Source: Patellaria atrata CBS 101060 (lineage: Eukaryota > Ascomycota > Dothideomycetes > Patellariales > Patellariaceae). From it: a stretch of DNA of 64,000 bases. The number at the start of each line of letters is the position of its first letter. The stretch's first letter is position 1. The notes beneath the pieces were generated by a model that saw only the letters and a program-made list of their open reading frames with translations, did not search any database and was not told the DNA's origin. Below, piece by piece: positions 4,765-21,371 of this stretch. Location of the stretch: assembly GCA_010093705.1 (NCBI GenBank), contig MU006090.1, positions 314,056 to 378,055 of the forward strand, written 5' to 3'. A program made the position numbers and the translations under genes.

Positions 4765-5571
4765 ATGAAGACCGCCTTCGTCCTCCTCGCAGCCATCGGC
4801 TCTGCCGCCGCACATTCGACATGGCAAGACCTTTGGGTTGGTAGCGAAGACAAAGGAACGACATGCACACGCGTTGTCAGGGACAACTCTCCAATCACAA
4901 GCGTGACCAACGCGGATATGTTCTGCGGTCGTGGACCAGCATCCAGCCCCAATGTCTGCGATGTCCAAGGTACGTTTGTTTCTGATCCGCTCTATCCCTA
5001 GAACTCCCAACTAATGACCAATTTCAGCCGGATCCTCCCTCACAGTCGAGATGCACGCGCAACCCGGCCAGCGATCCTGCTCCCAACCCGCCATCGGCGG
5101 AAACCACTATGGCCCAGTGCTGATCTACATGGGCAAAGTCAGCGACGCCAAGACCGCGAATTCTGGCGTCTCCTGGTTCAAGGTTGCGGAGGACGGCTAC
5201 ACTGGCACCACCGCCTCGTGGGGAACCGAGATCCTCAACGCGAACTGTGGCAAGCGCGCCTTCACCGTACCGAAGTCCCTCGCCTCCGGCAACTACCTCG
5301 TTCGTGCCGAGGCCATCGCGCTCCACGCCGGTGCCGGAAATCCCCAACCATACGTCTCTTGCTTCCAGGTAAATGTTGTCGGTGGTGGTTCTGCTAGCCC
5401 TCCAGGCGTGTCGTTCCCCGGTGCCTACAAGACCAAGTAAGATAAACTCCCCTTATGCCTATCAAAGTGACTTCATACTGACAAACTTACAGTGACGCGC
5501 TCTTCTCCAAGGCCATCTATGACCCCAGCTTCCAGTACGTCAGCCCTGGCCCAAAGGTCTGGACCGGATAA
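4765..5571 (+). CDS. AA9 lytic polysaccharide monooxygenase (secreted)
   Basis: There are three exons, 4765-4969, 5028-5436 and 5493-5571, with phases that join; the product has 230 residues. A signal peptide (MKTAFVLLAAIGSAAA) ends exactly before His17, which would be the N-terminal His of the mature enzyme and half of the copper-binding histidine brace. The second brace His is His95 in GGNHYGPVLIYMGKV, inside the typical QPGQRSC...GGNHYGP stretch. The axial Tyr is in the QxY signature of NPQPYVSCFQ. Even-numbered cysteines fit disulfides. There is no cellulose-binding module or linker, so this is a single-domain AA9 enzyme. Family role: copper-dependent oxidative cleavage of cellulose or other beta-glucans outside the cell. 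C1 or C4 regioselectivity cannot be told. Confidence 0.93.
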
Positions 5572-8913: not shown

Positions 8914-11841
8914 CTAAGAAATGGGTCTCATAACAAGGTGGCCATTGGCATCTAAGGCTGGTACTAGTATCGGTTCAGACTTGGTGGCAGGAGCTGTAGT
9001 AGCAGCAGCCATCATCATGCTCTCCTCAGCAGCGGCTTCCTCCTTAATCTTTTGGTTCACCTTCTCCCACTCTGCAAGAGATGGATGTTCCTCGCTCAAC
9101 GGCGGTAGCTTCGCGGACCAGACGCGACCGTTACGGAGGAAAAGACGTCTCCAGTCAGATGGATCTAGAGGGAGGAGAGAGTGTCGTTCTCTGGCGTTGG
9201 AGTTGATGCTGTGGGCATGCTTGGTAGGGTCAATACCGCTGGCTTTGGCGATCTGCTCACCACGCTCGGCACCGAAGTTGATGGGAATTGCCTCAGTGAA
9301 TTCTTTGGCGGAGACGCTCAACCAAGCTTCGGTATCAACCTTGATACGGTCGGCAAGCAGGCGGGTAGAAGACTCAACATCGTGTCCCTCGTTACGGCGT
9401 TGCCAGTACTCAAGGAAGCGGTAAGAGTGACCGATCATACCAGTCATAGCACCAGCGCTGGTAAGGAAATGACCGTTACCGAAGGAGTCACCAGCAATGA
9501 CACCGTTAGGTGCAACGCGAGGATCCTCACCCTGGCGTTCGACCAAACTGAACAGTTTAGGCCCGTAGATCATTTGAACCTTCCTCAACTCAGATTGATC
9601 AATACCCAGGACAAGTGAGGCCTGCTCGATGTAGAAGTCATGGAGTAGGAGTTGGTAGTTTGAGAAGTACTCTGCAGAGTTCTTATCGGTTCCTTCGGGC
9701 AAGAGACCGGCCTCGATAGGATCAAAGCTCAAGTAGTCAGGAACTTGAACAAGAACCCAGCCAATTTCAGGGTCGTTCTCGTGGCCCACAGCAATCTGGC
9801 GGACCCAGAACTCATTGCCCTCCTTGTCGAATTCTGAAGCAATACGCCTACGGAGACGACCATCAACCAAGATTTCGATCAGACCAGCAATGAAATCAGC
9901 TTGGGCGGTGACTGGGCCACGGCCATCATTGTGATCGACTTGCACATCTTTCTGTTCGAATCCAAGACGCTCGCCATCACTGCTGTGGAAACCCTGAGCA
10001 ATACAGAAGAGCTCAGGAACACCAAGATCGATGATGTTGCTACCAGGAGTTCTGAGACGGACGAGTTTGCCCTTGAAGTCCATCTCGAGGATTTCCTCAA
10101 TGCGAACCTGGAAGCGGCCGTCTGGTTGCTTAATCCATCCGTCGTTCTCCTCCTCAACAACACGATGATGAGTGAAAAGACGGGCTCTTGGGACACGCCC
10201 GTCTTTGATATCCATCTCTTCCATCTTCTCGAGATATCTACGGAAAAGAACTTGGATGGCAGAGGCAGCAGTTTGGAAGGTAGAGGGACCGTCAAGAACA
10301 TCATACATGTTAGTGCGGATTTTCGCCGGATCCGGCTTGCTTGGGGGGAGAGGGGGGTTAAGGAGGGTGATGGTACGGCTGGGTTTGCCATTGGCCCAAC
10401 GATCATCAATGTATTCAACATCATGGATGGTACCGACGAGATGCTGCTCCTTGTCATAGCCGTCAATGATCTCATCAGGGACGATATCACCTGCGACGGT
10501 ATCGACGTGGAAGAAGACGTCAGCAAGCTTGAAGAGAGATCCATCAAGCTTCTTGGGGATAGCAGCTTCACCATAGCGGGCCATCATCAATTGATCGATG
10601 AGACCAAGCTGATGGTATAGATCCTCACGAATGTTCCAATGGACACCGAGGAAAGGATCACCACGAAGCTCAACACCGACAGCACGGCGACCCAAGGCAA
10701 CAGCATACAACATAGCGAGGAGGTTAGTTCCACCAAGACCGACAGCCAAAAAGTCGGGGTTCTTCAAACCCTCAATGGATTCTGTAGCTTGACCAGCTGC
10801 GGTATTGATACCTGCAACACGTCGTTGGGTGAGGTACTTGACAGTTCCCTCAGATGCGGTGACCTTGGGCTTGCGGCGGGATGCAGCAACTGCTGGTACT
10901 TGGGCTGGAGAAAGTTCGATCACTGCGGGGGAAGCAGTAGCCATTCCATCTTCCTTCTTCATGCCATCAGCCATGGCCATTGTATCGTGCTTCATGGCCA
11001 TTCCCTCAGCCATAGCCATGGTAGTCTCTGGCTTCGCGGCCATGTTATCGGCCATGGGCATGGTATCGTGCTTCATGGTCATTGTATCAGCCATGGCCAT
11101 GCTTGCCTCTGGCTTAGGGGCCATGCTATCAGCCATAGCACCTTCGTGCTTCATAGCCATGGTTGTCTCAGTCATTGTCGGGACTGGGGGAACATCGGCG
11201 GTGCTCTCAGCTGGGGTAGCAACGACAGCAGCTTTCTGGGATCGGCTTCGGGCACGGGAGCTGGAACGTTGGCGGCGGGAGGATGGTCGACCCTCTTGAC
11301 GGGGTTGATAAATGGGCTGTCCCTGAGGGTAGTAGACTGGTTGGCCATTGGGGTAGAAGGCCGGCTGGCCTTGGGGGTAGAAGAACGGTTGTGGGGGACC
11401 GGGTGGGTAGTAGGCTGGCTGGCCCTGTTGTGGGTAGTAGGCTGGTTGACCCTGAGGGTAGAAGACTGGTTGACCCTGTGGGCTCTGGAAGACTTGTTGC
11501 TGGCCCTTACCCTTGCCGCTGAAGATAGAGGTCCAGGACCTACGAGACTTAGGCTTCACGGCCTCATGCTCGGTGTCGATGGAATCCGTGACGGAGGAGT
11601 CATCGTCAACGGCGTACCCGACGCCGTTTTCATCAGTGTAAAAGACTGTACCGGCGGGGAGGCTATCGAAGCTGTCATCAGAATGGCGCTCCGCTGAACC
11701 GCTGGAAGTTTTTGGGCGTTGAGCAGACCTTAGCTTTCCAATATCATAATTGGCGTTGGCCTCTGCAAGGGCCTGGTTTTCAGCACTGTGCTGAGATTTC
11801 AAAGAGCGACCGGACTTTGACCTCCTGAGAATTCTAGCCAT
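8914..11841 (-). CDS. large intronless protein: two low-complexity repeat regions plus nucleotide-binding enzyme-like core
   Basis: A single uninterrupted 975-codon frame with ATG at 11841. Residues 1-110 are basic and Ser-rich. Residues 121-180 are tandem YPQGQPxYYP-type repeats. Residues 187-206 are Arg/Ser-rich. Residues 223-300 are Met-rich repeats built on MAMKHDTM and MAD(N/G/S)M. From about 330 a globular region begins with DFLAVGLGGTNLLAMLYAVA (glycine motif at 368-373) followed by Arg-rich GRR and an acidic Glu391. This is the shape of a Rossmann beta-alpha-beta unit binding FAD or NAD(P). Highly regular segments follow (HWNIREDLYHQLGLI, RLGFEQKDVQVDH, RRRIASEFDKEGNEFWV, VAPNGVIAGDSFGNGHFLT, VSAKEFTEAIPINFGAERG). 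I recognise no named family. The core length (about 600 residues) and absence of introns would fit a gene of bacterial origin, but that is inference. The C-terminus is Ala/Glu/Met-rich. Confidence 0.85.
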   Translation of the reverse strand: MARILRRSKSGRSLKSQHSAENQALAEANANYDIGKLRSAQRPKTSSGSAERHSDDSFDSLPAGTVFYTDENGVGYAVDDDSSVTDSIDTEHEAVKPKSRRSWTSIFSGKGKGQQQVFQSPQGQPVFYPQGQPAYYPQQGQPAYYPPGPPQPFFYPQGQPAFYPNGQPVYYPQGQPIYQPRQEGRPSSRRQRSSSRARSRSQKAAVVATPAESTADVPPVPTMTETTMAMKHEGAMADSMAPKPEASMAMADTMTMKHDTMPMADNMAAKPETTMAMAEGMAMKHDTMAMADGMKKEDGMATASPAVIELSPAQVPAVAASRRKPKVTASEGTVKYLTQRRVAGINTAAGQATESIEGLKNPDFLAVGLGGTNLLAMLYAVALGRRAVGVELRGDPFLGVHWNIREDLYHQLGLIDQLMMARYGEAAIPKKLDGSLFKLADVFFHVDTVAGDIVPDEIIDGYDKEQHLVGTIHDVEYIDDRWANGKPSRTITLLNPPLPPSKPDPAKIRTNMYDVLDGPSTFQTAASAIQVLFRRYLEKMEEMDIKDGRVPRARLFTHHRVVEEENDGWIKQPDGRFQVRIEEILEMDFKGKLVRLRTPGSNIIDLGVPELFCIAQGFHSSDGERLGFEQKDVQVDHNDGRGPVTAQADFIAGLIEILVDGRLRRRIASEFDKEGNEFWVRQIAVGHENDPEIGWVLVQVPDYLSFDPIEAGLLPEGTDKNSAEYFSNYQLLLHDFYIEQASLVLGIDQSELRKVQMIYGPKLFSLVERQGEDPRVAPNGVIAGDSFGNGHFLTSAGAMTGMIGHSYRFLEYWQRRNEGHDVESSTRLLADRIKVDTEAWLSVSAKEFTEAIPINFGAERGEQIAKASGIDPTKHAHSINSNARERHSLLPLDPSDWRRLFLRNGRVWSAKLPPLSEEHPSLAEWEKVNQKIKEEAAAEESMMMAAATTAPATKSEPILVPALDANGHLVMRPIS
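10942..11175 (-). repeat. coding repeat: Met/His/Asp-rich units
   Basis: Encodes residues 223-300 of the large protein. Units of roughly 20 to 30 residues alternate MxMKH(D/E) with MAD(N/G/S)MA and KPE(T/A). The near-identical DNA copies (GCCATGGCCAT, TCGTGCTTCATGG) indicate recent slippage or unequal exchange. Confidence 0.8.
11302..11481 (-). repeat. coding repeat: YPQGQP units
   Basis: Encodes residues 121-180: about seven copies of a roughly 8 to 10 residue unit (GQPAYYPQ and variants with Phe or Val). Aromatic/Gln/Gly/Pro-rich composition is of the prion-like, phase-separating type. Confidence 0.8.
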
Positions 11842-20206: not shown

Positions 20207-20980
20207 TTAGCTATGTGTAGCGTGCGGTCCAATGCCTAGCTCCCTATCCCTTCTCATACCTTCTAGTACAGCAACAAGCCCGCCCTGCCTCATTCTCTCA
20301 AGTACAACCTTCATGCCCTCCTTAGCATTGGGCTGGGATTTCGTAGCTCTCTTCAGTCCGATTATTTCAATGGACTTTCGTATCGACGCCGTCGACCACG
20401 ACCTGAAGAAGCCAAGTCTAGCCGGCTGTTCCTCTTCATCATCGACAGATACCGCAGCACGAGCTCTCTTCCACCTGCTTTCTCCCAACGGCGAATGCAG
20501 AGTAACTATCGTCTTGACTTCCGTCCTCTCCCCTTCCGTCTCATCAAGCAGCCCACGGGGGGCCGTGGCAACCTCAGCTGCCGCGAGAAAACTCTCCTGC
20601 CTTGGTGGACGCCGATATTCCTGCTTCTCCACAACGCTCAACACACCCGTCCACTCAAGATTCTTACTTTGAGTCGTCATCCACCCCTCCTTCAAATTCA
20701 CCACGCTCGTCTCCAGAATGTAGGCCTGAGAGTCCCCATTCGCGTTCGCCCCCAGCAGGCTCCGTGGGAGCAGCTTCAGCACGGGTGCTGGAATCTTGGA
20801 GCGCTTGAGGTGCAGGCGTGTCGTTTTGAGGGTCTGGGTTACAGGATCGAAGTGCCGCTCGATAACATCGGTGCTTTGGACATGGCGGGAATATGGATTC
20901 GGATAGCGCAGGAAGTAGGCGAGGGTTACGGCGGGAAAGGGATAGTCGTAGCTATAGCTAGATTCGTAGAATTTCACCAT
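20207..20980 (-). CDS. PRELI/MSF1 (Ups-like) mitochondrial phospholipid transfer protein
   Basis: Single exon, 257 residues. The N-terminal half matches the PRELI/MSF1 domain of yeast Ups1/Ups2: FPAVTLAYFLRYPNPYSRHV, then TDVIERHFDP, TLKTTRLHLK, and an LPRSLLG loop, followed by an ETSVVNLKEGWMTTQSKNLEW strand region. Family members act in the mitochondrial intermembrane space with Mdm35, moving phosphatidic acid or phosphatidylserine between membranes for cardiolipin or PE synthesis. YPNPYS and the overall order are closest to Ups1/PRELI, but the subtype is not certain. A fungal-type insertion (residues about 125-190, Glu/Arg-rich) separates the domain halves. It is divergent from the SPC98 gene, 391 bp apart. 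Confidence 0.87.
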   Translation of the reverse strand: MVKFYESSYSYDYPFPAVTLAYFLRYPNPYSRHVQSTDVIERHFDPVTQTLKTTRLHLKRSKIPAPVLKLLPRSLLGANANGDSQAYILETSVVNLKEGWMTTQSKNLEWTGVLSVVEKQEYRRPPRQESFLAAAEVATAPRGLLDETEGERTEVKTIVTLHSPLGESRWKRARAAVSVDDEEEQPARLGFFRSWSTASIRKSIEIIGLKRATKSQPNAKEGMKVVLERMRQGGLVAVLEGMRRDRELGIGPHATHS

Positions 20981-21371
20981 GATGATCGTAGATAGTGCAT
21001 TGTCGCTAATGAGGACAATTATGTGAAGGCTATTGCTGCGTCGAGAGGGTTGATACGGATAGTTGTTGATGCGGTGGAGTTGGAGAGAGGGTGATGTCGT
21101 GTGGTGCGTGGTGAAGGGAACGCTGGCGAAGGATTCTAGATGGAAGCATCCGGATAGGGAAAGATTGGCACAAGTGGCGTGAGGTGACTTTTGGGTGTGG
21201 CAGGGCGCTAGTGCGGGGAAATTTTGGCAGCGATATGTGGCTTAGCACGATTACACTTAAAGTCAAACAACCCAAACATCACGTCTCCTTGTCAATTGAC
21301 AGAAACAAGCGCGTCGACGTACCCATTTTCTCCTCTAAAAGTTCTCGTAAGTATGCGCAATCGAACGCAGA
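20981..21371 (+). promoter_or_regulatory. divergent promoter between Ups-like and SPC98 genes
   Basis: 391 bp between two start codons facing away from each other. No obvious TATA box; the part near 21050-21140 is G-rich. Nothing further can be read. Confidence 0.4.

Follow-up and report, generated by a model that had tools for sequence, protein, structure and literature searches.

A Fungal Protein with a Bacterial-Type Core, a Predicted PHBH-Type Flavoprotein Fold, and N-Terminal Repeat Arms

Introduction

Group A flavoprotein monooxygenases, among them PHBH, PnpA, UbiH, KMO, squalene epoxidase, and the tetracycline destructases, carry a GxGxx dinucleotide loop, a DG site, and a GD motif, in this order along the chain. 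The GD motif contributes to the binding of flavin adenine dinucleotide (FAD), and the DG motif to the binding of both FAD and the reduced nicotinamide cofactors (NAD(P)H). Here, a 64,000-nucleotide stretch of the genome of the fungus Patellaria atrata CBS 101060 (contig MU006090.1, positions 314,056 to 378,055; hereafter, the window) was analyzed with a focus on one gene of 975 codons, the product of which resembles these enzymes in its predicted fold and in the order of the three sites. It differs from them in that the core has no match to the Pfam family FAD_binding_3, the third glycine of the loop is mostly an asparagine, the aspartate of the DG site is replaced by glutamine or glutamate, and identity to the structures it resembles is low.

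MICALs are likewise flavoproteins of the PHBH type and oxidize other proteins, such as actin; in the Patellaria protein, a methionine-rich stretch lies in the same chain as the core. In a review (PMC8394241), MICALs and Aspergillus FmoB are described as oxidizing methionine residues in proteins, and methionine-rich low-complexity regions, such as that of yeast Pbp1/ataxin-2, as responding to oxidation; that an enzyme might oxidize the methionine-rich Pbp1 condensate sensor is judged "highly speculative" there and lacking in direct evidence (Appendix A of that review). With 20 methionines in 82 residues, the fungal protein has a low-complexity arm of the kind seen in methionine-rich redox-sensing domains. 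It resembles Pbp1 in this respect, whereas Pbp1 is an RNA-binding protein for which the same review describes no enzyme domain (PMC8394241).

We propose, with moderate confidence, that the gene encodes a flavoprotein whose core of about 570 residues came from bacteria and to which about 350 residues of disordered repeat arm were then added in the fungal lineage. The fold and the bacterial kinship of the core, taken together, are the part of this proposal of which we are most confident, and strongly so.

Results

The Core Belongs to an Existing Bacterial Family

The core (Table 1) aligns with a plasmid-encoded protein of Streptomyces sp. RerS4 (WP_283844563.1) at 57% identity over 574 columns, with 7 gap positions only. 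Because of this continuity no intron is needed in the gene, and the single intronless frame of 975 codons described in the initial annotation, which gave no strand, stands as drawn.

A scan of bacterial and archaeal genomes, with the fungal and RerS4 sequences as queries, recovered homologs at 25 bacterial loci, of which one is partial and one has a broken frame, with 56–68% identity over the best segment; because the scan relied on two short patterns, this number is a lower bound. Identity is 66–68% in Ktedonobacteria, 56–65% in several actinomycete families, 62% in metagenome-assembled genomes (MAGs) of Ilumatobacteraceae and Acidimicrobiales, 61% in a Chloroflexota MAG, and 64% in a "Deltaproteobacteria" MAG that is labeled Myxococcota in the tree discussed below. 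The bacterial proteins, such as those from Ktedonobacter (L009), Dactylosporangium (L021), and RerS4, align with the core over its length. By sequence, the family is patchily present in bacteria: the core was found in 9 of 47 genomes of the Ktedonobacter class, 2 of 201 of the Chloroflexota phylum, and 2 of 343 of the Kitasatospora order, and in other groups in 1 of 188, 2 of 198 (one weak), 4 of 249, and 7 of 345 (one weak). The tallies of 201, 188, 198, 249, and 343 genomes are samples of larger groups, with the center genome counted and the best few candidates per genome scored.

Neither Pfam nor NCBIfam returned a family for the window protein at E values up to 10, and FAD_binding_3 (PF01494) was not among the Pfam families of 24 family members at E up to 0.01. 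A PHROGs search yielded a chance-level match only (E 0.038), and neither a single scan of viral contigs nor a search of phage records recovered the core. Among the papers listed in searches of an open-licence library, none names the family in its title or abstract opening, from which it does not follow that the family has never been described. On these sequence comparisons, the core represents an existing bacterial family without a Pfam or NCBIfam model. The initial annotation could not name the family and held that a self-assembling or metal-holding arm joined to an oxidoreductase would be a new type of fungal protein. The first statement agrees with the Pfam, NCBIfam, and PDB sequence searches; as to the second, the arms are indeed unusual, being absent from 23 aligned bacterial proteins (L012 among them is cut by a contig end), but the core belongs to a family already present in bacteria.

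The name of the Streptomyces record, prephenate dehydrogenase, was rejected as the identity of the core: PDH_N covers residues 11–157 of that protein, outside the core. The gene (L004:14386–16761) was annotated in this way because a single frame runs through PDH_N into the core, which may have an internal methionine as its own start. A frame-broken core copy is present in Ktedonobacter sp. SOSP1-85 (L024:9995–11709), the genome of which also holds an intact copy (L027). Alignments A2–A4 include neither this broken copy nor the partial one (L028) nor the plasmid locus L004, and L027 was used in A2 and A3 but not in A4.

Predicted Fold and FAD Motifs of the Core

A first model, built with 24 sequences, had a predicted local distance difference test score (pLDDT) of 66.5 and a predicted template modeling score (pTM) of 0.74; a second model, made by AlphaFold2 from 30 sequences, divergent second and third copies of the core among them, reached 83.0 and 0.86, respectively. 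Foldseek searches of the PDB gave 648 matches at E ≤ 1e-3 for the first model and 514 for the second. The 50 listed for the second model are all, by name, PHBH-type FAD proteins or their close kin, and the 50 listed for the first model belong by name to the same class. They comprise p-nitrophenol monooxygenase, UbiH, tetracycline destructases, squalene epoxidase, kynurenine monooxygenase, and halogenases, as well as a geranylgeranyl-reductase-like protein and, with the first model, the FAD-bound Diels-Alderase TedJ. Identity in the listed matches is 9–14% and the template modeling (TM) score to the query 0.33–0.49 across both models, and the core is therefore related to these proteins in fold without being a member of their families. 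Of the 514 matches of the second model, the 50 listed include no MICAL, and neither do the sequence-profile matches of the core.

As modeled, the core has a predicted PHBH-type two-domain FAD fold with its motifs in the right order (Table 1). The GLGGTN loop and the acidic residue at the end of the second strand had been recognized in the initial annotation and pointed to a dinucleotide fold, which the second model specifies as FAD-type and PHBH-like. All four sites are conserved in kind throughout the 24 members, and the third glycine of the GxGxxG loop is kept in only one of them (L016), with asparagine in most. The earlier description of the core as an oxidoreductase has to be qualified, since it draws on the predicted fold and on a motif set in which the DG site is degenerate. 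Given the roles of these motifs in group A enzymes, we take the core to form a separate branch within the PHBH-fold superfamily, one in which the contact with NAD(P)H and FAD would be altered.

Table 1. Features of the gene and its product, with window coordinates
Feature	Position in window	Strand	Basis
Whole gene, 975 codons + stop	8914..11841	minus	Open frame, ATG to TAG
Residues 1–117, Ser-rich, charged, low complexity	11491..11841	minus	Composition
Residues 118–182, YPQGQP repeats, prion-like composition	11296..11490	minus	P 28%, Q 25%, Y 15%
Residues 183–215, Arg/Ser-rich stretch	11197..11295	minus	Composition
Residues 222–303, methionine-rich arm	10933..11178	minus	20 Met in 82 residues; tandem units
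Residues 304–352, linker without clear bacterial counterpart	10786..10932	minus	Alignment
Residues 353–920, bacterial-type core, predicted PHBH-type flavoprotein fold	9082..10785	minus	Alignment, model
GLGGTN, residues 368–373, dinucleotide loop after first strand	10723..10740	minus	G[LM]G[GA]T[NSG] in 24/24
E391, acid ending second strand	10669..10671	minus	E or D in 24/24
AQG, residues 615–617, group A DG motif site with Asp replaced	9991..9999	minus	A[QE]G in 24/24
GDSFGNGHF, residues 784–792, GD FAD motif	9466..9492	minus	GD[ST]FGNGHF in 24/24
Residues 921–975, Ala/Glu-rich 55-residue C-terminal tail with MMM	8917..9081	minus	Composition

Origin of the Fungal Gene

In a maximum-likelihood tree of 36 rows, one of them fungal, the Patellaria protein nests among bacterial sequences. 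The clade around it, supported at 99/92, contains Ktedonobacteria, Kitasatospora, Nonomuraea turkmeniaca, Microtetraspora, a Myxococcota MAG, and several other MAGs, and the fungal branch measures 0.51 changes per site. Two pairs of rows (L015/L061 and L029/L051) are identical or almost identical in sequence, the tree omits the two most divergent third copies, and the record of the plasmid locus L004 stands in the tree as L060, going by its coordinates. Given the diversity on the bacterial side and the nested position of the fungal protein, transfer from bacteria to the fungus is favored, and by sequence the core has probably crossed between kingdoms. Such a transfer had been suggested in the initial annotation, in part from the intronless state of the gene. 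Kinship and nesting support the idea; the intronless state is by itself a weak sign because several neighboring genes likewise have intron-free frames (547–625 codons), and the phylogeny carries the argument.

Two further possibilities were discarded. Contamination by bacterial DNA was rejected in view of eukaryotic genes on both sides of the gene and of the arms, which are not seen in the aligned bacterial proteins. Transfer of a bacterial gene pair, the core together with the pyridoxal phosphate (PLP) decarboxylase that accompanies it at some loci (see below), was rejected as well, since the decarboxylase has only ~30%-identical matches in the fungal genome, on other contigs.

Repeat Arms and C-Terminal Tail

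The region ahead of the core contains two repeat arms. The YPQGQP repeats, assigned in the initial annotation to residues 121–180, extend slightly further on both sides, and the stretch that had been called rich in methionine, histidine, and aspartate (223–300) is indeed rich in methionine, its histidine content having been overstated. Its composition is 24% methionine (20/82), 21% alanine, 13% threonine, 8.5% aspartate (7), and 3.7% histidine (3), with no cysteine. The Arg/Ser-rich stretch and the C-terminal tail were additions to that description.

This methionine content is extreme for the region. The window plus 20 kb of flanks contains 269 stop-free frames of 80 or more codons, and their richest 80-residue stretch is that of the arm, with 20 methionines; its own antisense has 12, and the next place 9. 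At the DNA level, Tandem Repeats Finder reported 24-bp units at 11327–11391 and 11403–11482 in the YPQGQP arm and 39/81-bp units at 10960–11139 in the methionine arm.

Domain Architectures and Gene Company in Bacteria

Bacterial members carry additions of other kinds. By Pfam (E up to 0.01; L012 cut by a contig end), an FHA domain is present in 8 of 24 members and an ATP-grasp domain in one. As judged by eye in the alignment, the FHA domain is C-terminal in Ktedonobacteria and in the Ilumatobacteraceae MAG, an ATP-grasp-like C-terminus is found in L017 and perhaps L006, and the Actinokineospora copies begin with a pair of putative membrane helices. The core proteins of L006 and L017, which have the longest C-termini, are adjoined by cyclic-nucleotide-binding proteins (L006:12824–13363 and L017:8026–9921), of which one is fused to a sodium:sulfate symporter.

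Methionine-rich C-terminal tails occur in Dactylosporangium (L021, 12 methionines in 68 residues) and Actinoallomurus (L026, 12 in 55), close relatives of each other in the tree. In the composition sample of 13 tails plus the fungus, those of L018 and L029 have 2 methionines, and of the other ten, nine have none and that of L005 has 5 in 243 residues. Together with the fungal arm, these tails indicate that a methionine-rich addition to the core seemingly arose at least twice; by sequence, the additions seem to lie at opposite ends of the core in the fungus and in the actinomycete lineage.

At four loci, a second, divergent core copy forms the C-terminus of the next gene (L018:11854–15045, L021:11959–15342, L026:11923–15279, and L029:11890–15072), where an MFS carrier precedes it (Pfam was run on L018 only); the same arrangement is probable in two further genomes, L056 and L068. 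A third, highly divergent copy without a Pfam family lies at L021:17962–19326 and L026:18107–19702 (minus).

Neighbor families were defined by sequence clustering at 26 bacterial loci, several of which are cut short by contig ends. A PLP-decarboxylase family adjoins the core or lies one gene away at six of them (L004, L007, L013, L022, L023, and L025; Pfam-checked in L004 and L007). Six loci likewise have a Na+/H+ exchanger family nearby (L007, L013, L018, L021, L027, and L029; checked in L018 and L013). The Streptomyces plasmid locus looks, from its annotations, like an enediyne-type cluster. From the genes around L021 (FmrO-type rRNA methyltransferase, TGT, PIG-L below the cut-off, and GMC) and L018 (GMC, DegT, GT4, and radical SAM), we infer aminoglycoside-type clusters. 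This antibiotic-type company makes tailoring or export-linked oxidation a fair guess for the bacterial role. Among the few neighbors scanned at Ktedonobacteria loci, no biosynthetic-type company was found. Near the core and the PLP decarboxylase, two loci encode proteins composed of DinB_2, FGE-sulfatase, and methyltransferase domains (L022:13139–15397 and L025:6706–9069), which we take to be the domain set of the ovothiol synthase OvoA.

Genomic Setting

The gene is single copy in its own genome (28.3 Mb, 46 contigs; one match, to itself). Eukaryotic neighbors in the window encode carbonic anhydrase, a gamma-tubulin complex protein, a WKF protein, Nop58, an actin-like protein, ribosomal proteins S15 and S2/SA, and Not3, and a PRELI protein was assigned by eye to 20207–21241. 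The best PDB match of Nop58 is a chain of 5oql, a structure from Chaetomium thermophilum, in keeping with a filamentous ascomycete. An exon resembling AA9 lytic polysaccharide monooxygenases, which are copper enzymes, was assigned by eye to 5018–5440 (+), 3.5 kb from the gene. An Rfam scan of the window gave no result.

Discussion

The data suggest a model in which a bacterial core was acquired and then fitted with disordered arms in the fungus. The core would bind FAD and use NAD(P)H and O2 to oxidize a substrate, or would act as a related FAD oxidase; we consider FAD-dependent oxidation reasonably probable. The Tyr/Gln and methionine arms could serve as stickers and tethers through which the enzyme is concentrated or positioned in the cell, and oxidants produced by the core or in its surroundings would reach their methionines. 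A function of the arms as an assembly or placing device is a tentative assignment, to which we give slightly less than even weight.

Several observations weigh against this model. A PDB sequence search with a profile of 24 members returned neither MICAL nor any other flavoenzyme at E up to 10, and the TM scores of the second-model fold matches to the query are only 0.37–0.47. By hhalign, the family profile and that of 18 FAD_binding_3 proteins are collinear over the three motif sites, and yet the match is weak (probability 2.6%, E 0.017; the controls gave E 0.29–0.81, and the GMC control is itself FAD-binding). The aspartate of the DG motif, a feature of group A enzymes in the strict sense, is replaced by glutamine or glutamate in all 24 members, and classical NAD(P)H-driven hydroxylation may therefore be lost. 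On the side of descent, the tree, which is rooted at its midpoint and includes one fungus, does not single out a sister of the fungal protein. The codon usage of the core correlates with that of pooled neighbors at 0.60, against 0.42–0.48 for three bacterial homologs; it was given no weight because the control, in which neighbors were left out in turn, is noisy (−0.32 to 0.61), and it counts here as uninformative. Lastly, the reading as a whole is drawn from one fungus, at the level of sequence and model.

Alternatively, the arms themselves might have no function and have grown as neutral minisatellites within a disordered N-terminus. Both are tandem arrays in the DNA, and the 81-bp units of the methionine arm show 82% matches, as would be expected from slippage. 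Against neutrality, comparison of the two full 26/27-residue units reveals 0 changes in 18 nucleotides of methionine codons versus 18 in 60 elsewhere (Fisher 0.008). Adding a third, partial unit weakens the contrast (2/18 versus 17/48 and 2/15 versus 18/48; 0.07 and 0.11). In addition, the pairs depend on one another, and one gap column with methionine on one side was left out. The codon pattern hints at retention of methionine, no more, and neutral growth is somewhat unlikely.

A second alternative would make the core a non-redox FAD protein, that is, a scaffold, redox-neutral catalyst, or regulator comparable to the FAD-binding Diels-Alderases or sensory flavoproteins. Loss of the DG aspartate throughout the family is in line with this idea, as are the appearance of TedJ among the fold matches and the regulatory look of the fusions to FHA (8/24), ATP-grasp (1/24), and the MFS carrier. 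Retention of the GD motif and the strand-ending acid in all 24 members argues in the other direction, as does the position of several loci among putative biosynthetic tailoring genes, and on balance we regard a non-redox role as unlikely.

Third, the methionine arm could hold a soft metal, Cu(I) or Ag(I), through MxM and MxxxM spacings with nearby histidines, in which case the core would be a metal-linked reductase or oxidase. The arm contains seven overlapping MxM and five MxxxM spacings, the same core bears methionine-rich C-terminal tails in L021 and L026, and the AA9 exon lies close by, the last probably by chance. Yet the arm has only three histidines and no MxxM, the two bacterial tails are without histidine, and no copper family was named among 10 proteins scanned, a part of the neighbors of L018, L021, L026, and L029. 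Metal binding therefore seems quite improbable.

That fungi instead had the family ancestrally, or gave it to bacteria, is highly improbable: a fungal side consisting of one sequence on a long branch (0.51) leaves room for it, and patchy bacterial presence (9/47 in the Ktedonobacter class, 2/343 in the Kitasatospora order) fits mobility in any direction, but the bacterial side spans several phyla with paralogs and fusions, and the fungus falls inside one supported clade.

Within the model of an acquired flavoprotein core with added arms, a more specific version can be formulated, in which the MICAL-like fold of the core would oxidize the methionines of its own arm with NADPH and O2. Self-assembly driven by the Tyr/Gln and methionine arms would be melted by this oxidation and reset by Msr enzymes. 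We consider such a one-chain methionine redox switch distinctly improbable.

More generally, a family of flavoproteins for which neither Pfam nor NCBIfam has a model, and which in bacteria partly keeps company with antibiotic-type genes, has probably been passed to a fungus. There, the arms would set a possible redox sensor beside a possible methionine-oxidizing fold in one chain, and this single protein therefore allows a direct test of whether flavin enzymes set the state of methionine-rich condensates. If the self-oxidation switch were true, enzyme and sensor would be combined in one polypeptide.

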